DNA from: Candidatus Saccharimonadota bacterium
Lineage (GTDB): Bacteria > Patescibacteriota > Saccharimonadia > Saccharimonadales > Saccharimonadaceae
NCBI GenBank assembly: GCA_024699125.1
Contig: JAILQE010000004.1
Location: 1-64,000 of the forward strand
DNA length: 64,000 nucleotides
Reading direction: 5' to 3'
Below, in pieces: positions 3,488-15,853 of the stretch; within the stretch, counting starts at the first letter, position 1; each line of letters starts with the position of its first letter. The position numbers and the translations under genes were made by a program. Under the pieces are notes generated by a model that saw only the letters and a list, made by a program, of their open reading frames with translations, was not told the origin of the DNA and did no database searches.

Positions 3488-3616
3488 AAAAACCACCTCC
3501 TAACTTCCATACAAAAAGTAGGCGCAAAAAAACGAAATTTCAGTTAATGTGCGCCCCCATACCTTTATTATAACATAAACGCTTTGAAAAGTCAATATGC
3601 GAAAGAGTTAAAGCGC

Positions 3617-3647
3617 AGAAAAGCCCTCAACCAGTGAGGGCTTTCAT
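3617..3647 (-). terminator. Intrinsic terminator for the small minus-strand gene
   Basis: AAAGCCCTCAACCAGTGAGGGCTTT hairpin just past the stop of 3652..3999. Confidence 0.6.
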
Positions 3648-3651
3648 GTTG

Positions 3652-3999
3652 CTAATAAAGCACTGACGGATTTGGCGTCGGGATAAAATATTTTAATCCC
3701 TTCTCATCCTCGACTTCGCAGACAATAACTTGAACCCGATGAAGATGTTCCTCACCATTCTCGTCGATAACGACAATATTGATGTACCAATCTCCGTCTG
3801 CCTGGTATGCAACCGCCGGCTCAAGTTCCGGCGTGGGCGTAGTTTCTAAAGCCGCCACAACATCGTTTTCTGGCAAATATCCATCAAGAGTTCCGCCATT
3901 CACGAGTGCGCAGATCCCGCAGACAATGAGTGCGATCGCGAGAAATGCAGTCAAAAGGAATAACAACGCGGCTCCACAGCCAATACGATCTTCTTCCAT
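3652..3999 (-). CDS. Small hypothetical single-TM protein
   Basis: ATG at 3999 (MEEDRIGCG...) preceded by GGAGGAGGT; hydrophobic segment LLFLLTAFLAIALIVCGICALV; upstream TTGACT..TATAAT on minus strand. Confidence 0.65.
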   Translation of the reverse strand: MEEDRIGCGAALLFLLTAFLAIALIVCGICALVNGGTLDGYLPENDVVAALETTPTPELEPAVAYQADGDWYINIVVIDENGEEHLHRVQVIVCEVEDEKGLKYFIPTPNPSVLY

Positions 4000-4180
4000 A
4001 GTAGAAACCTCCTCCACAAACTGACACGGGTGCAAAGCAACAAAGAAAAAAAGAACGCACCCCCATACTTATATTATAGCATAAACGCCTTAATTAGTCA
4101 AGATAAACCAGCCAGATTGCACCCCAAAATGCTTTTCTTTTCTATCAAAGTATGCTATAATCCATGAAAGAGTTTCATCT

Positions 4181-4212
4181 CGTTTATTATTGCTGTATCG
4201 ATAAACGGGGAA
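4181..4212 (+). promoter_or_regulatory. rpsL leader hairpin, candidate r-protein autoregulatory site
   Basis: CTCGTTTAT...ATAAACGGGG hairpin between the TGCTATAAT promoter near 4151 and the rpsL GTG. Confidence 0.4.
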
Positions 4213-4241
4213 AATATCAATTTAAATAAGGAATTTTAATT

Positions 4242-4655
4242 GTGCCAACAATTAATCAATTGATTCGCAAGCCTAGAAAAAGTGCTGCGAAGAAATCCAA
4301 AGCTCCAGCTCTTGGTTCCATCATCAATACTTTGAAAACCAAGCGCTACGAGAAAGACGCTCCACTCAAACGTGGTGTCTGTATCAAAGTTACTACCAAG
4401 ACTCCAAAGAAACCAAACTCCGCTATGCGTAAAGTCGCTCGTGTGCGTCTTACCAATGGCCAAGAAGTTTGGGCCTACATCGGTGGTGAAGGTCACAACC
4501 TCCAGGAGCACGCAGTCGTGCTCGTTCGCGGTGGTCGTGTGCCAGATCTTCCAGGTGTGCGTTATCACATCGTTCGTGGTACGCTCGATCTCCAAGGTGT
4601 TCAAGGTCGCAAACAAGGCCGTTCTAAATACGGTGCAAAAAAGGAGGATAAGTAA
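4242..4655 (+). CDS. rpsL: 30S ribosomal protein S12 (GTG start)
   Basis: [13 protein letters not shown]...[23 protein letters not shown]...[12 protein letters not shown]. Confidence 0.97.
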
Positions 4656-4657
4656 TT

Positions 4658-5137
4658 ATGCCACGCAAAACTACTAAATCCCTAGAGCGCAAAGTTTCAC
4701 CAGATCGCAAATATCAATCCATCTTGGTGCAACGCTTGATCAATAAATCTATGCTCGATGGCAAAAAACAAGCCGCAGAACGCGCTGTTTACGCCGCCAT
4801 CGAAGGCGCTGCCAAGAAACTTAAAAGCGAAAACCCAGTTGAGGTGCTTGAAAAAGCTATCGCCAACGTCAGCCCAGATTTCGAAGTTAAATCTCGCCGC
4901 GTAGGTGGTGCTAACTACCAGATTCCATTTCCAATCGCTGGTCACCGCCAACTTCACTTCGCCTTCTCTTGGCTCGTACAATCCGCCCGCGCTCGCGGCG
5001 GCATGCCATACGAAAAACGCCTCGAAGCCGAAATCGTTGACGCTTACAACGAAACCGGTGCCGCCTTCAAGAAAAAAGAAGACTGCCACCGCATGGCCGA
5101 AGCCAACCGTGCATTCGCACACTTCGCTCGCGGCTAA
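4658..5137 (+). CDS. rpsG: 30S ribosomal protein S7
   Basis: MPRKTTKSLERKVSPDRKYQSILVQRLINKSMLDGKKQ...VGGANYQIP, AFAHFARG end. Confidence 0.97.
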   Translation: MPRKTTKSLERKVSPDRKYQSILVQRLINKSMLDGKKQAAERAVYAAIEGAAKKLKSENPVEVLEKAIANVSPDFEVKSRRVGGANYQIPFPIAGHRQLHFAFSWLVQSARARGGMPYEKRLEAEIVDAYNETGAAFKKKEDCHRMAEANRAFAHFARG

Positions 5138-5148
5138 TCGCATTGATT

Positions 5149-5180
5149 ACAAAAAGAGCCTCTCGGGGCTCTTTTTGGTT
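5149..5180 (+). terminator. Intrinsic terminator after rpsG
   Basis: CAAAAAGAGCCTCTCGGGGCTCTTTTTGG. Confidence 0.85.
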
Positions 5181-5252
5181 TCGTACTCGAATCCGTAACC
5201 GTTGTATTTTTTATGTGGGTAATTCTAAATGTTTAAAAAAATTCTCTTAAAA

Positions 5253-5283
5253 ATGAAGAAAGCTCCCAGATGGGAGCTTTCTA
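5253..5283 (-). terminator. Intrinsic terminator of the small minus-strand gene
   Basis: AGAAAGCTCCCAGATGGGAGCTTTCT palindrome. Confidence 0.65.
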
Positions 5284-5302
5284 AGGTACGCGCAGGGAGT
5301 GA

Positions 5303-5461
5303 TTAATTGTCGGGAGTAGTATAAACAATATCCTCTCCGTCAAAGTCTTCGTCATCGTATTCATCGAAATCGGTAAAGTAATCACCGAAGAAGAAGTAAA
5401 TGACTGCAGCAATAGCTGCAATAATTGTGATGCTCCCTAAAACAAGTGCCAATTTTTTCAT
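5303..5461 (-). CDS. Small TM protein with acidic C-terminus
   Basis: MKKLALVLGSITIIAAIAAVIYFFFGDYFTDFDEYDDEDFDGEDIVYTTPDN; GGAGGT SD; TTGACT..TATAGT promoter on minus strand. Confidence 0.65.
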   Translation of the reverse strand: MKKLALVLGSITIIAAIAAVIYFFFGDYFTDFDEYDDEDFDGEDIVYTTPDN

Positions 5462-5585
5462 ACAACATACCTCCTGGGGTTTTTTCGGGCACCCCATAAC
5501 TATAGCACAAAACGGCACAAAAGTCAATGTAACATAAGCGTAAAGCTTGTGCTATAATAACCACAAGTACTTAAAGGAATCATTA

Positions 5586-6590
5586 ATGATAAAAGTTGCA
5601 ATCAATGGTTTTGGACGCATCGGTCGCTGCTCCCTCAAGATTTTGCTTGAGCGGCGCGACGCGCAAGTGGTCGCGATTAACGCCACCATGCCGCCAGAAA
5701 CTGTCGCTTACCTCTTAAAACACGACTCGGCCTACGGCACTTACGACAAAAAAGTGTCCTTTACCGACAAAGCCTTGATTGTAAACTCCCGCGAAATCTT
5801 TCTTATCAACGAGCGCGATCCGCTCAATTTGCCATGGAAAAAACTCGGCGTAGATGTAGTCTTAGAATGCACCGGCGCCTTCACAAAACCAGAAGAAGCC
5901 CGCGCCCACATTAAAGCCGGCGCCAAAAAAGTCGTGATTTCGGCCCCAGCCAAAGGCGAAGGTGCTAAAACCGTAGTTCTCGGCGTCAACGAAGAAGTCG
6001 TAGACAACACTGATGAAATTATCTCTAATGCATCCTGCACCACCAACTGTATCGCCCCAATTATGAAGGTGCTAGAAGATGAATACGGCATCGAAAAAGC
6101 CATGATGAGCACCGTGCATTCTTACACCAATTCGCAACGCATCCTTGATTCGCCAGCCAAAGACCTCCGCGAAGGCCGCACTGCCGCCGAAAATATCATC
6201 CCAACCACCACCGGCGCCTCAAAGGCCGCCGCGCTTACCATTCCTTCGCTCAAAGACAAATTCACCGGCCTCTCAATCCGCGTCCCTACCCCTGTAGTTT
6301 CACTAGCTGATATCACTGCGATTTTAAAATGCGACGTCACCAAAGAAGATTTACAAAAGCTCTTCCGCCGCATCGCCAAAGAGCCTTACTACGAGGGAAT
6401 CATTGGTGTTTCCGAAGAAGAACTCGTGTCCTCCGATTTTATCGGCGATTCACGCTCCTGCATCGTGGATTTGCCGCTGATTGATGTTGTGGGTGGAAAT
6501 ATGATAAAAATTGTCGCCTGGTACGACAACGAATGGGGTTATTCAAACCGCCTCGTTGAGCTGGCCGTCGACTTTGGAAAGGAAGTATAA
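5586..6590 (+). CDS. gap: Glyceraldehyde-3-phosphate dehydrogenase, type I
   Basis: MIKVAINGFGRIGR, SNASCTTNCIAP active site, WYDNEWGYSNR. Confidence 0.97.
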   Translation: MIKVAINGFGRIGRCSLKILLERRDAQVVAINATMPPETVAYLLKHDSAYGTYDKKVSFTDKALIVNSREIFLINERDPLNLPWKKLGVDVVLECTGAFTKPEEARAHIKAGAKKVVISAPAKGEGAKTVVLGVNEEVVDNTDEIISNASCTTNCIAPIMKVLEDEYGIEKAMMSTVHSYTNSQRILDSPAKDLREGRTAAENIIPTTTGASKAAALTIPSLKDKFTGLSIRVPTPVVSLADITAILKCDVTKEDLQKLFRRIAKEPYYEGIIGVSEEELVSSDFIGDSRSCIVDLPLIDVVGGNMIKIVAWYDNEWGYSNRLVELAVDFGKEV

Positions 6591-7039
6591 TGCAAATTTT
6601 TATCGGTTCCGATTACCGTGGCTTTGCCAAAAAACAAGTTATCATTGATTATTTAAGAGAGCTCGGCATCACCGTGACCGATCTTGGTGCTCACGAATAC
6701 AAAGAAGGTGACGATTTCAATGATCCAGCCATCGCCGTAGCTAAAGCCATTCTCAAAAACCCAGATTCCTATGGTATTTTGCTTTGCGGCTCCGCCCATG
6801 GTGTCACCATGCAAGCCAACCGCTTTACCGGCATCCGCGCCGCGCACTGCGACACTCCAGAGTCCGCCGTGCTAGCCCGCACTCACGAAAATTCCAACGT
6901 ACTTTGCCTTTCTGCCCAATTCAAATCTGATGAAGAAGTCAAAAATATCACCCGCACCTTCCTCGACACCGAGTTTGAAAACTTGGAACGCCGCATTCGC
7001 CGCATTAATCGCTTAGATGATAAAAGGGAGCTTCTATGA
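6590..7039 (+). CDS. rpiB: RpiB/LacA family sugar-phosphate isomerase (ribose-5-phosphate isomerase B)
   Basis: MQIFIGSDYRGFAKKQ..., GILLCGSAHGVTMQANRFTGIRAAHC. Confidence 0.9.
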   Translation: MQIFIGSDYRGFAKKQVIIDYLRELGITVTDLGAHEYKEGDDFNDPAIAVAKAILKNPDSYGILLCGSAHGVTMQANRFTGIRAAHCDTPESAVLARTHENSNVLCLSAQFKSDEEVKNITRTFLDTEFENLERRIRRINRLDDKRELL

Positions 7040-7692
7040 TCAAGACCGTCACATTAGTACCAACTTTGACGACCGACGACAAGCAGGTTTATCGCAATTT
7101 AGTCGAGACCTTTAATACTTTTACGCGTCGTGTTCAAATTGATGTTACTGACGACGAGTTCGCGCCAAATCGCACAATCGATATCACCAACGTTTGGTGG
7201 CCAAACGAATGGCAAGCCGATCTGCATTTCATGGCGCTTTATCCATCTAAATATATCGATACTATCATTCGCTTGCATCCATCGCTTTGTATTTTGCACG
7301 CCGAAGCCAACGAAGACCTTACCCCAACCTTTGCCAAACTCAAAGAAGCTGGCATCAAAACCGGTCTCGCGCTTTTACCACAAACCTATCCAGGCAACGT
7401 CAAACAATACCTTGAAACTATCGATCATGTTTTGATTTTTGCCGGCGACTTAGGCAAACAAGGCGCCACTGCCGACCTCATGCAAATGGAAAAAATCCCT
7501 CTCATTCGCGAACTCCGCCCGACCGTTGAAATCGGCTGGGATGGCGGAGCCAATATGAGCAATATCCGCGCGCTTTCACACGCCGGCATCGACGTTATCA
7601 ACGTAGGCGCCGCCATTTCTAAGTCTAACGATCCAGCCAACGCCTTCCGCACACTCAAAACCGAAATCGATAAAAACGGAGTGGTACTATAA
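7036..7692 (+). CDS. Divergent ribulose-phosphate 3-epimerase-like protein
   Basis: TIM-barrel family pattern (QIDVTDDEFAPNRT, DLHFMA, WDGGANMSNIRALSHAGIDVINVGAAI); several canonical residues changed. Confidence 0.7.
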   Translation: MIKTVTLVPTLTTDDKQVYRNLVETFNTFTRRVQIDVTDDEFAPNRTIDITNVWWPNEWQADLHFMALYPSKYIDTIIRLHPSLCILHAEANEDLTPTFAKLKEAGIKTGLALLPQTYPGNVKQYLETIDHVLIFAGDLGKQGATADLMQMEKIPLIRELRPTVEIGWDGGANMSNIRALSHAGIDVINVGAAISKSNDPANAFRTLKTEIDKNGVVL

Positions 7693-8654
7693 TGGCACGC
7701 ATCGTTACCGTTGGTCACGCTTTGCAAAGCATCTATTTAATCGATCGCAATAATTTTTCGGCTACCGAAATTGGTGGAGAAGCTCTCTTTACTAAGCTCC
7801 TCGCCGGCAGCACACTTGATGTAGAAAAAATCTCCTACGAGCTCGGTGGCAGCGGCATCAACACCGCCATCGAATTTGCTCGTCATGGCCATGAAACCAT
7901 TTTCCTTGGCAACGTCGCTCGTGATTCAGCCGGCGCTGCCATCATTAATCTTTTCAACCGCGAAAATATTGATGCTAGCTATACAAACGTCGTTAGCAAG
8001 AAAACCACCGGCACGTCCGTAATTTTGCTCGACCCAAAGAACGCTAAAAAAGTCACTTTAAAAAATGCCGGCGCCTCCGATAATTTCAGCGAGCTCGATC
8101 TAAGCGACTTAGAGCTCATCCAGCCAGACTGGCTTTATGTTTCTACATTAAATGGCGATATGCGCACTCTTCTAAAGCTCTTTGAAAAAGCAAAATCCCT
8201 TGGCGCCAAAATCATGTTTAACCCGGGGCCAAAAGAGCTGGCCGAAACCAAAAAACTCGTTGGGTTGCTCCAAGATGTAGATATTCTTTACGTCAACAAA
8301 ACCGAAGCCGCCAACATTGTACCAGGCGCAATTCTATCCGAACTTCTCGCACATCTACAAAACTACGTCCAAACCGTCATCATTACAGACGGCCAAATGG
8401 GCGGCATTGCTACCAACCACGAAGAAACCTACCGCTTTGGCATTTATGAAGACGTGCCAGTTAAAGACACCACCGGCTCGGGCGACGCCTTTGGCGCTGG
8501 CTTCCTCGCCCACTTTGCTGCCGGCAAATCATTCCGCACTTCGCTAGTTTATGCTTCCGCCAATGCTACTTCAAACGTTACTAAAATCGGTACCACACGC
8601 GGCGCCCTCACCGGAGTTGAGCCTTTGCACCCGATGCTAATTCAAAAACTATAA
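7692..8654 (+). CDS. PfkB-family carbohydrate/nucleoside kinase
   Basis: GGSGINTAIEFARHG and DTTGSGDAFGAGFLA signatures. Confidence 0.88.
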   Translation: MARIVTVGHALQSIYLIDRNNFSATEIGGEALFTKLLAGSTLDVEKISYELGGSGINTAIEFARHGHETIFLGNVARDSAGAAIINLFNRENIDASYTNVVSKKTTGTSVILLDPKNAKKVTLKNAGASDNFSELDLSDLELIQPDWLYVSTLNGDMRTLLKLFEKAKSLGAKIMFNPGPKELAETKKLVGLLQDVDILYVNKTEAANIVPGAILSELLAHLQNYVQTVIITDGQMGGIATNHEETYRFGIYEDVPVKDTTGSGDAFGAGFLAHFAAGKSFRTSLVYASANATSNVTKIGTTRGALTGVEPLHPMLIQKL

Positions 8655-8662
8655 GGAGAGAT

Positions 8663-9394
8663 ATGTTACCAAACGAAGCTGAAGTTCTACAAAGATTGTC
8701 TATTGCCGATATTGAACGTGCACAATCCTATGTCAAAGATTTGACCCGCGGTCTAGAAATTATCCGCACCTTCCCACAAGGCGTTACGGTTTTTGGTTCC
8801 GCCCGTTTACCACAAGACAACAAATACTGCATTATGGCCCGCAAGCTCGGCAACCTACTCGCTCAAAACGGCCACGCCGTGATTACTGGTGGCGGCCCAA
8901 GCATCATGGAAGCAGCCAGCCTCGGCGCCTACGAAATCGGTGGCCGCGCCATTGGTTTTAATATCACGCTTTTGCACGAACAAGTTCCAAACCCATACCT
9001 TACCGAATGTCTCACCTTTGAGCATTTCTTCGCCCGCAAAGTCATGCTTTCAATGGCGTCCAAAGTCTTCGTCTTCTTCCCAGGCGGCTTTGGCACCTTC
9101 GATGAGCTTTCTGATATTCTCGAAATCATGGTTGAAAAGAAAATGCCAATTATGCCAGTCTTCCTCATCGGTAAATCATATTGGCGCAACTACATCAAAA
9201 TGCTAGAAAAAGCCGTAGAATCCAAGCTCGCCGACAGAAAGAGCCTCAAAATCATCACCGTTACCGATGATGTTCGCGAAGTTGTAAAAGCCGCCAATAA
9301 AATCGGCCATCCAAAAGTATCAGAAAACTATTACGACGGTTTTAACGAAGCGCAAGCCCTTAAAAAGGCCGGCCAAACGGGAGCGAAGGGTTAG
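8663..9394 (+). CDS. LOG-family protein (Rossmann fold, TIGR00730-like)
   Basis: [41 protein letters not shown] motifs. Confidence 0.88.
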
Positions 9395-10637
9395 ACTCAG
9401 CAATTCGCATCAATTCATTATATTTGGCGATACGATCGGTTCTCGAAAGGGAACCGGTTTTGATTTGGCCAGCACCAAGACCAACGGCAAGGTGCGCAAT
9501 TGAAGTATCCTCGGTTTCACCAGAACGGTGCGAAATAATCGTGTTATAGCCAGCATTTTTGGCCATCATCACGGCGTCAATAGTTTCAGAAAGGGAACCA
9601 ATTTGATTAAACTTCACCAAAATCGCATTCGCCACACCTTCGTTGATGCCGCGAGATAATATCTCGGTATTAGTTACAAACAAATCATCGCCCACAATCT
9701 GTACTTTGGAGCCCAAACGCTCGGTTAAGATCTTCCAATTCGCCCAGTCATTTTCCGCTAAACCGTCTTCAATTGAGGCAATCGGGTATTCGTTTACTAG
9801 TTGCTCATACCAGGCAATCATTTCTTCGGCGGTTTTAACTTCACCACTGGTTTTAAGAACATATTTGCCATCCTGATAAAATTCGCTCGAAGCAATGTCG
9901 AAGCCAATCTTAATATCGTCACCAAATCTATAACCAGCAAGCTCGACGGCTTTTTTGATATGTTCGAGTGGCTCGGCGTTACCGCCCTTAACTTTTGGCG
10001 CATAACCGCCCTCATCGCCCACGGTTACAGTATAACCCTGCTCTTTCAAAACTTTCTTCAGTGCATGAAAGACCTCGGTACCCATACGAATCGCATCATA
10101 AATCGTGTTCGCACCGCACGGAATAATCATGTATTCCTGGAAGTCGGTAGCCCAGTCAGCATGTTCACCGCCATTCATTACATTCATCATCGGAAGTGGC
10201 AAAGACATTTGCCCAGTCGTACCAGCGAGCTCGGCCACATAATAATAAAATGGCACGCCCTTGGCTCGCGCCACGGCTTTTGCTACGGCAAGTGACACAG
10301 CAAGAATCGCATTGGCGCCAAGATTAGATTTATTTTTGGTACCATCCAGTGCGATCATCGCATTATCAATCTCGCGTTGATCGGCATTTTTGCCAATCAA
10401 AAGATCACGAATCTTAGTATTCACATTTTCAACTGCCTTAAGCACGCCTTTGCCACCATACTCGGCAGCACCATCGCGAAGCTCCAAAGCCTCGAGCGAA
10501 CCGGTGGATGCGCCAGACGGCACAATCGCGCGGCCAAAAGAACCATTATCAAGAAAAACATCTACTTCAACTGTAGGATTGCCACGCGAGTCTAAAACCT
10601 GGCGGGCTTTAAGATCTTTTATTTTAAAACTAACCAT
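9360..10637 (-). CDS. eno: Enolase
   Basis: [51 protein letters not shown] 10637 lies 6 nt after TGTTATAAT on the minus strand. Confidence 0.97.
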
Positions 10638-10711
10638 AAGCATATTATAACAAAATTTTTCACCAGGATGTGCTATTATAAAAGTAATAATAACTAAAAG
10701 GAGTTACTTTA

Positions 10712-12058
<1,347 letters not shown>

Positions 12059-12075
12059 TCTTTGACCGCTTCACG

Positions 12076-12110
12076 AAAATAGCCTCTCTTTACAGAGGCT
12101 ATTTTTTGTT
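12076..12110 (+). terminator. Intrinsic terminator abutting the uvrC promoter
   Basis: AAAATAGCCTCTCTTTACAGAGGCTATTTTTTG. Confidence 0.85.
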
Positions 12111-12123
12111 GTATAATATAAAT

Positions 12124-13470
12124 ATGGATGCTTTGCTAAAAGAAAAACTCAAAAAATTGCCGGCAAGCCCTGGCGTTTATTTTCATAAAGATAAAACCGG
12201 CGAAATTATCTATGTAGGCAAAGCCGCCGTGCTTAAAAACCGCGTGCGCCAATACTTCCAAAACACCAAGAAAGACCCAAAAACCGAGGCTTTAGTTACT
12301 GAAATCAACGACACAGATTGGATCGTAGTGGATACCGAAATGGACGCACTCTTTCTCGAGTCCGAAATGATTAAGCGCTACATGCCAAAATGGAATATTT
12401 TGCTTCGTGACGACAAAACCGTGTCTTATGTGCGCATTAATATGCAAGACGAAGTGCCGCACATCAGCTATACTCGCAACCCGATGGACGACAAGGCCAC
12501 TTATATCGGTCCTTTTTATGGCAAATCTGCCGTGGAAAAATCTGTAAGATTGCTCCGCCGCATTTTCCCGTATTATGACAAGCCATACAATGGCAAAAAG
12601 TCGCTAAATACTGATCTTGGCCTCACTCCTGGCATTGAAGTAGGCAAATGCACGCCAGAAGATTACAAGCGCAACCTGCGTAAAATGATTCGTTATCTCA
12701 AGGGCGAGCGTCAGAATCTTATCAAAGACCTCGAAAAAACCATGTACGACGAAGCCGGCAAAGGGAATTACGAACTGGCCGCCGAAGCTCGCGACCAACT
12801 CGCTGGGCTCAAAGAACTCCGCAGAAAAATCGTCTTCTCGGACAAAGAATTTTTGGATATTTCAAGCGACCAGGCCCTAAATCAGCTGCAATCGCTCCTA
12901 AAACTAGACCACCCGCCACGCCGCATCGAAGGCTACGACATTTCACACCAATCTGGCACCAACACGGTAGCCAGCATGGTGGTATTCATTAACGGTGCCT
13001 CTGCCCGCGACCAATACCGCAAGTTCAAAATCCGCACCAGCACCAGCGACGACCTCAAAAGCATGCACGAAGTCATCGAACGCCGCTTAAAACACACCGA
13101 GTGGGAATACCCAGATTTAATTATCCTAGATGGTGGCGTGACGCAAATCAACGCAGTTTTACCATTGCTTACACCACACAATATTCCAGTAGTCGGGCGC
13201 AACAAGTCCGGAGATCATTCTCGCAATGCGACAGTTAGATTGATAATTCCAGATATTTTGGTTCGAGGGACTTCCGGAGCGCGGCAGCGCGAGGATGAGT
13301 GCGCGAGCCCCGTGGCGACGGGCGCGAGCGACACGGCCCGAGAACCAAAGAGTCTGGAATTATCACCTAGTTCTCATATTTCGAAACTTATCGCCAGGAT
13401 AGACGAAGAGTCTCACAGATTCGCAATCAACTATCACACCCTTTTGAAACGCAAAAACCTCCTCAAGTAA
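12124..13470 (+). CDS. uvrC: Excinuclease ABC subunit C, short form with in-frame palindromic insertion
   Basis: GIY-YIG region LPASPGVYFHKDKTGEIIYVGKAAVLKNRVRQYF; UvrC RNase H-like domain EGYDISHQSGTNTVASMVVF...PDLIILDGGVTQINAV; RIDEESHRFAINYH; TATAAT 6 nt before ATG. Confidence 0.92.
   Translation: MDALLKEKLKKLPASPGVYFHKDKTGEIIYVGKAAVLKNRVRQYFQNTKKDPKTEALVTEINDTDWIVVDTEMDALFLESEMIKRYMPKWNILLRDDKTVSYVRINMQDEVPHISYTRNPMDDKATYIGPFYGKSAVEKSVRLLRRIFPYYDKPYNGKKSLNTDLGLTPGIEVGKCTPEDYKRNLRKMIRYLKGERQNLIKDLEKTMYDEAGKGNYELAAEARDQLAGLKELRRKIVFSDKEFLDISSDQALNQLQSLLKLDHPPRRIEGYDISHQSGTNTVASMVVFINGASARDQYRKFKIRTSTSDDLKSMHEVIERRLKHTEWEYPDLIILDGGVTQINAVLPLLTPHNIPVVGRNKSGDHSRNATVRLIIPDILVRGTSGARQREDECASPVATGASDTAREPKSLELSPSSHISKLIARIDEESHRFAINYHTLLKRKNLLK
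13241..13365. repeat. Palindromic element inserted in frame within uvrC
   Basis: Left arm TGATAATTCCAGATATTTTGGTTCGAGGG is imperfectly complementary to right arm CCCGAGAACCAAAGAGTCTGGAATTATCA; GC-rich core between. Confidence 0.75.
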
Positions 13471-15526: not shown

Positions 15527-15617
15527 GCGCCTGTGGTGGAATTGGTAGACACGCTACCTTGAGGTGGTAGTGGCCAGATTCACGGCTGTGCTAGTTCGAG
15601 TCTAGTCAGGCGCACCA
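15527..15617 (+). tRNA. tRNA-Leu (GAG anticodon), encoded CCA
   Basis: GCGCCTG...CAGGCGC acceptor stem plus ACCA; anticodon arm CTACC-TTGAGGT-GGTAG; long variable arm; T-loop TTCGAGT; TATAAT 8 nt upstream. Confidence 0.93.
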
Positions 15618-15808
15618 AAAGAACAAAAAACAAGCCTGAATGGCTTATTTTTTTGTTCTTTTGACACATCTTGACTAGGCGCGAACGTTAGTTCGCCCGC
15701 CGTAGGAGCCGAGCAAAAAATGCAAGCTTGCTTGCAATTTTTGGAGTCGACGCCCGGCGGCTTATTTTTGTGAAACAAAAATAAGCGACTAGTCCAGGCG
15801 CACCAAAA
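15607..15808 (+). repeat. Direct repeat of tRNA-Leu 3' end (CAGGCGCACCAAAA) flanking a hairpin-rich segment
   Basis: Identical 14-mers at 15607-15620 and 15795-15808; hairpins between. Confidence 0.8.
15617..15664 (+). terminator. tRNA-Leu terminator-like hairpin
   Basis: AAAAGAACAAAAAACAAGCCTGAATGGCTTATTTTTTTGTTCTTTT. Confidence 0.7.
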
Positions 15809-15853
15809 AAGCATTTTCGTGATACAATTGAAATAAGTAATAAGAGAGTATTT

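Follow-up and report, generated by a model that had tools for sequence, protein, structure and literature searches.

Palindromic repeats of about 100-150 nt that carry no transposase gene, the Rickettsia palindromic elements (RPE), are placed by the published accounts in intergenic DNA, in functional RNAs, and in protein genes, which are left undisrupted (PMC4316617, PMC10969869, PMC2229807). Bacterial MITEs such as Correia, ERIC, and RUP are described as short, non-autonomous, dispersed, and hairpin-forming, and some are fused in frame to genes (PMC2229807). Repetitive hairpin-forming elements, both intergenic and in frame within genes, are also reported from the compact genomes of sponge mitochondria (PMC2800124). 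Searches of the open literature returned no palindromic elements described in the phylum to which the Saccharibacteria belong. The genomes of Saccharibacteria, which live on other bacteria, are very small. To our knowledge, the means by which short palindromes lacking a transposase move has been debated ever since the first accounts of the Rickettsia elements.

The window analyzed here is a stretch of 64,000 nt from a Saccharibacteria genome of 765 kb (98.8% complete), and it contains, behind tRNA-Leu(GAG), a member of a family of small DNA elements that form hairpins, encode no protein, and had not been listed before. In behavior the family may be likened most closely to the RPE, selfish hairpins, here with the addition of tRNA-templated arms; the likeness is one of description and no membership is claimed. 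As in RPE, the 188-nt unit is palindromic, is present in many copies (5 in this genome, 395 matches to a covariance model), and has no mobility gene, and inserts in protein genes (QueA, TrmD, Der, and others) keep the frame open. It differs from RPE in being found in another phylum, Saccharibacteria rather than Rickettsia, in a set arrangement behind tRNAs, where the forward and inverted arms are specific to the tRNA, a feature that the available portions of the RPE accounts do not describe, and in a conserved internal-loop core in place of a simple long stem. Like MITEs, the element is short, dispersed, hairpin-forming, and found in frame within genes; unlike MITEs, it showed neither conserved terminal inverted repeats nor a short fixed target duplication, no cognate IS was found, and its repeat is about 19 nt long and different at every tRNA. 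The sponge elements are organellar, and copies of an adjacent tRNA, which are present here, are not described in the accessible part of that source (PMC2800124). Despite the tiny genomes of its hosts, this hairpin element has spread through one Saccharibacteria family, reaching many kinds of tRNA and the conserved genes QueA, TrmD, and Der. Because the target-specific arms record each insertion, and there are hundreds of copies in many genomes, the mechanism can be tested by comparison.

Structure of the unit downstream of tRNA-Leu(GAG)

The tRNA-Leu(GAG) gene is intact (15527-15617, + strand; ARAGORN; Rfam RF00005, 51.5 bits) and is the source of the copied arms; its T-arm lies at 15590-15606 and the 3' strand of its acceptor stem, with CCA, at 15607-15617. 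In Rfam scans at both gathering and permissive thresholds, the tRNA was the only match above the gathering score, the others being weak sub-threshold matches at chance level. The tRNA is followed on the same strand by the whole 188-nt unit (15618-15805), with a direct repeat at both ends. The initial annotation had reported CAGGCGCACCAAAA at 15607-15620 and again at 15795-15808, and both copies were found there; the repeat extends to 19 nt at 89% identity, with a start spacing of 188.

A perfect terminator-like hairpin (15616-15663, no strand assigned) starts inside the CCA. It is an inverted repeat with 15 of 15 pairs, the arms of which (15616-15630 and 15649-15663) are 100% complementary; the terminator scan matched it on both strands, and its position is shared with the related copies. 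The R arm (15672-15686, + strand) is an inverted copy of the T-arm, TGACTAGGCGCGAAC versus GTTCGAGTCTAGTCA in the tRNA (87%). It is joined by hairpin P2 (GCGAAC-GTTA-GTTCGC, 15681-15696, + strand), which was seen in several folds and in which the 3' strand, TAGTTCG (15689-15695), repeats tRNA positions 15592-15598 in direct orientation. The inverted T-arm copy and the partial direct copy TAGTTCG were absent from the initial annotation, and because of them the duplication can be said to span the T-arm plus the 3' end.

Beyond P2 is P3 (15697-15760, + strand), which consists of the conserved core, GTAGGAGCCGAG...GAGTCGACGCCC (15702-15755, + strand), and a closing stem (15697-15701/15756-15760). 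Covariance model R1 matched the window at 15692-15765 with 74.6 bits and an E-value of 4.6e-19, which is rough, as are all E-values of this model, and the window copy (L001) is in the model's own alignment. Hairpin P4 (GCTTATTTTTGT-GAA-ACAAAAATAAGC, 15760-15786, + strand) is an inverted repeat with 12 of 12 pairs, and in relatives it is a consensus hairpin showing two-sided changes. The last part, F2 (15787-15808, + strand), is a direct repeat comprising a second copy of the T-stem 3' strand, the acceptor 3' strand, and CCA. An outer stem, P1, could be formed by CTAGTC (15789-15794) pairing with GACTAG (15673-15678). The GACTAG-type T-arm remnant that had been noted near the second copy was present at 15787-15792 and also at 15673-15678, and the intervening hairpins, the terminator-like one and the others (15681-15696, 15714-15743, and 15760-15786), were likewise all found where the initial annotation put them.

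The predicted fold of 15600-15830 had a z of -7.3, which was equalled by 0 of 200 shuffles, and the second copy scored 11, versus a maximum of 8 among 100 shuffles. Chance is therefore ruled out as the origin of the fold and the second copy.

Distribution of the core

When the interior of the segment was queried without the tRNA, DNA search alone gave matches in 46 of 147 genus genomes. Model R1, which was built from a 66-sequence alignment and has 74 positions and 19 pairs, gave 395 hits, which were spread over 85 of the 99 genus genomes scanned. Copies numbered 0-20 per genome over these 99 genomes (1-20 if positive; median 3), counts drawn mostly from metagenome assemblies, in which short repeats at contig ends are perhaps miscounted. 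Two-sided compensatory change was seen in 16 of the 19 model pairs, and paired alignment cells amounted to 94.6%, versus 72% when shuffled and 38-50% when slid. Invariance of the loop bases is due in part to the search pattern by which the copies were collected; the stem covariation does not derive from it.

That pattern, GTAGGAGNCGA-N18-46-GAGNCGACGCCC, gave at least 119 stretches in named genomes; among the matches listed, nearly all were from Saccharibacteria, and the named records were rumen and gut Candidatus Saccharibacteria. Those in Frankia, Agromyces, Rubrobacter, Chloroflexi, and others were attributed to chance and set aside. A class-wide draw placed the core in 54 of 195 genomes and 9 of 96 genera, all within one family, and every structurally convincing copy among the matches listed and the class-wide genomes was in rumen/gut-type Saccharibacteria.

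The genome from which the window was taken has five copies, at Leu-GAG (in the window), Tyr-GTA, Ala-CGC, Asn-GTT, and Pro-TGG, and each of the five immediately follows its tRNA on the tRNA strand. The initial annotation had proposed a minimal non-coding element inserted at a tRNA and a search for the segment beside other tRNA genes; its presence at these 5 tRNAs and at many more in related genomes bears this proposal out.

Position behind tRNAs and origin of the arms

Among the 124 pattern matches listed, 64 lay within 150 nt 3' of a same-strand tRNA, 1 lay 5' of a tRNA, and 0 were on the opposite strand; many of the remaining matches were close to contig ends or within genes. Of 44 top-scoring loci of the model, 37 followed a same-strand tRNA at a distance of no more than 150 nt, a proportion that reflects the making of the model mainly from such copies, so that top scores favor them. 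One relative (L066) carries its core 3' of tRNA-Cys but on the opposite strand, and the same-strand rule is therefore not absolute.

The set of tRNA-linked elements extracted numbered 74 and spanned 28 anticodon types. In most of them 71-89 nt separate the CCA from the core, with exceptions from 2 to 96. The order of the unit was the tRNA, the terminator-like hairpin, about 8-11 nt of unrelated sequence that stands opposite the acceptor strand, R, and a short loop, followed by a copy of the T-stem 5' strand with TTC[GA], P3, P4, and the copy of the T-stem 3' strand, acceptor 3' strand, and CCA. The core, coming after TTC[GA], thus occupies the T-loop of a supernumerary tRNA 3' end.

The arms of the tRNA-linked copies are specific to the local tRNA. 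Over 69 copies, the mean match to the own tRNA was 8.5 for the R arm, versus a permutation maximum of 6.1, and 13.9 for the F2 arm, versus a permutation maximum of 6.7 (0 of 1000 permutations for each), and F2 was specific for its own tRNA in 63 of the 69. The T-loop base, G or A, could be scored in 65 copies, and in all 65 it was the base of the local tRNA (60+5; p = 1e-7).

Units were found in tandem at some loci, for example L126 and L153, with a spacing of 182 nt. At four loci (L046, L047, L062, and L074) there were second or third copies of the tRNA end with a terminator of their own, as if units duplicate in tandem. At four others (L040, L048, L060, and L102) the terminator hairpins of the tRNAs were enlarged by a further repeated palindrome, GCCGGCATCTCGGCC...CTTGCTCGCTC...GCGCTTCGCAAGAAGAAAAGACCAATCTGCCGGC.

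Insertions in protein genes and at other sites

Copies in frame were found in QueA, TrmD, and Der, and the products aligned to solved homologs with a clean gap at the insert (272-339 in QueA, 175-253 in TrmD, and 168-223 in Der). Other in-frame copies were in genes that were read, putatively, as RecX, DagK, ValS, PheT, a methyltransferase, and a P-type ATPase. The intragenic copies were in both orientations, roughly half of them antisense, and the frames stay open; a self-splicing intron, which would be expected in sense orientation, was rejected because of this mixed orientation. Copies were also present in a CIRCE-like promoter (L073 and L175) and in an apparent 23S rRNA leader (L183).

Empty QueA alleles were found in relatives, and other alleles had unrelated hairpin inserts at the same loop. 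The empty alleles place both arms inside the insertion, so the host gene was rejected as the source of the inverted arms in intragenic copies, and host-derived arms are claimed for the tRNA copies only. The QueA loop just before RIVALGTT is a hotspot, with different in-frame hairpin inserts between genomes and none in others (L257, L263, L264, L272, L274, L279, and L280). A ValS-like protein (L138, 1400-4618) had further in-frame repeat peptides, SEGVRSAAAREVAPAAHGDGPAGRAPKI and ENNTFETVRDN, each present twice, which suggests other families of protein-coding palindromic inserts in that genome.

Search for a mobilizing enzyme

REP elements with RAYT, the resemblance of which to the present element we take to be a hairpin with 5' GTAG, were rejected as a model, since a Y1 (HUH) transposase was detected in only 3 of 99 genus genomes, though 85 of the 99 carry the core. 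The Y1 match in this genome is a truncated, internally deleted IS200-like sequence at the end of the contig from which the window comes (G000:C7:80376-80450, L190). RVT_1 was present in 60 of the 99 genus genomes, all reverse transcriptase classes pooled, and showed no correlation with copy number (rho 0.13, p 0.19); it was absent from this genome, and at this pooled level it lends no support to a reverse transcriptase as driver. A search for an integrase elsewhere, as the initial annotation had advised, yielded as the sole tyrosine recombinase detected in this genome an Xer-type protein, encoded apart from the unit, which scored below the XerD equivalog cut-off and above that of the XerA/integron-integrase model. 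No integrase accompanies the unit, and the Y1, RVT_1, and recombinase searches found no mobilizing enzyme.

Mobility of the core and alternative explanations

The core is dispersed and structurally conserved, and in one genome it has passed by copying from one tRNA locus to another. In assembly JAFVBG, the cores at Gln-CTG (L104) and Arg-CCG (L165) are 99% identical over 90 nt and their arms differ, each matching its own tRNA, which indicates that the core moves; this was the one near-identical pair seen within a genome. The reading we prefer, to which we assign a probability of about 0.7, is that the segment is a small, non-coding, palindromic mobile element, selfish and protein-less, which spreads as a structured core (P3 plus P4). 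Its insertion is tolerated because an intact tRNA remains upstream.

We infer that duplication came first and the core second. A fold-back or template switch at the tRNA 3' hairpin would make a forward-inverted-forward duplication, such as core-less relatives carry. A trans-acting factor would then copy the core, as a hairpin-forming single strand, into the duplicated tRNA end at its T-loop, and the copies that survive would be those that spare host genes, either in frame or beside an intact tRNA. More tentatively, the family may represent a class of protein-less mobile element in ultra-reduced symbiotic bacteria, which would enter a tRNA locus framed by fresh forward and inverted copies of the T-arm, have the target sequence copied into its own outer stems, and be mobile as structured RNA or single-stranded DNA by way of a trans factor.

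The main rival to a selfish element, which we consider unlikely, is a structured RNA that is useful to the host and co-transcribed with the tRNAs. Its R arm would pair with the T-arm strand of the tRNA or with the second copy, tuning folding, 3' processing, or termination. Such a role would fit the strict same-strand position and near-fixed spacing, 75-90 nt, behind 28 anticodon types, the arms that are kept complementary and tRNA-specific, the strong stem covariation, and the minimum-free-energy fold, in which the 5' acceptor strand of the tRNA is able to pair with the distal copy. G-U pairs exceeded A-C mismatches on the tRNA strand (45 vs 16; 27 vs 16, p 0.13, when one position was removed), which also points to RNA, but this bias is too weak to decide between RNA and DNA. 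However, the terminator-like hairpin stands ahead of the core, and the core also occurs in promoters, in an apparent rRNA leader, and, facing either way, within protein genes. Copy number varies from 0 to 20 per genome, and presence at any given tRNA is patchy. Comparison of the tRNA-Leu(GAG) locus between genomes, another check proposed in the initial annotation, gave a mixed picture, with the core in about 6 of 29 readable loci (diverged in L011), a bare copy of the tRNA end in about 9, and neither in the rest.

A purely local origin of the tRNA 3' duplication, by replication errors (template switching at hairpins) and with no mobile element involved, is improbable. Core-less forward-inverted-forward duplications do exist at tRNA-Leu(GAG), some of them in tandem; at six loci (L016, L018, L024, L031, L036, and L037) the tRNA 3' end is duplicated one to several times downstream, and the core-less copies form small hairpins, GACTCG-loop-CGAGTC (TAGTCAGGCGCACCA). 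However, local copying cannot give rise to a core of 74 positions shared by unrelated loci and tRNAs, and a near-identical core at two tRNAs of one genome also speaks against it. Template switching is contradicted for the core-bearing copies; it is likely the first step in formation of the element.

The other half of the two-way interpretation in the initial annotation, an att-like scar, fared less well than the inserted non-coding element. That the repeat is the attL/attR scar of a phage or integrative element that has lost its body is very improbable. The tRNA 3' end is indeed present as a direct repeat, and real serine-recombinase islands use tRNA-Leu(GAG) in relatives, but one core family occurs with 28 anticodon types, the repeat differing from one to the next, the inverted T-arm copy is foreign to att sites, and the sole tyrosine recombinase detected in the genome is the Xer-type protein encoded elsewhere. 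One of these islands, in genome G083, is 9.7 kb long (L192, G083:C9:62000-78000, 3500-13270), encodes a 544-aa large serine recombinase with Resolvase, Recombinase, and zinc-ribbon domains, and lies between tRNA-Leu(GAG) and the hairpin plus core. In G138, a near relative of G083, the tRNA and the element are unseparated. The element was thus in place before the island arrived and cannot be a scar left by it. A phage source was also unsupported, as 50,697 phage records matched the tRNA alone and not the element, and the 2 pattern matches in 2.9 million viral contigs read as unrelated GC-rich sequence without flanking hairpins.

The remnant of a degenerate tandem tRNA-Leu gene, which the initial annotation had named as the finding that would overturn its proposal, is hardly credible: it would account for the T-loop, T-stem 3' strand, acceptor 3' strand, and CCA in the second copy, but the D-arm, anticodon arm, and 5' acceptor strand are missing, the interior is the dispersed core, the same layout is found at many tRNAs, and the independent copies of the segment next to many other tRNAs refute it.

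Two further observations concern the surroundings of the element. Recombinase-like ends similar to that of the G083 island seem to follow tRNA-Leu(GAG) in three genomes (G018, G009, and G026) and, in G061, to come after the element. Upstream in the window, an ORF at 10712-12058 encodes a membrane anchor followed by long aspartate runs (DDDDDDD repeats).
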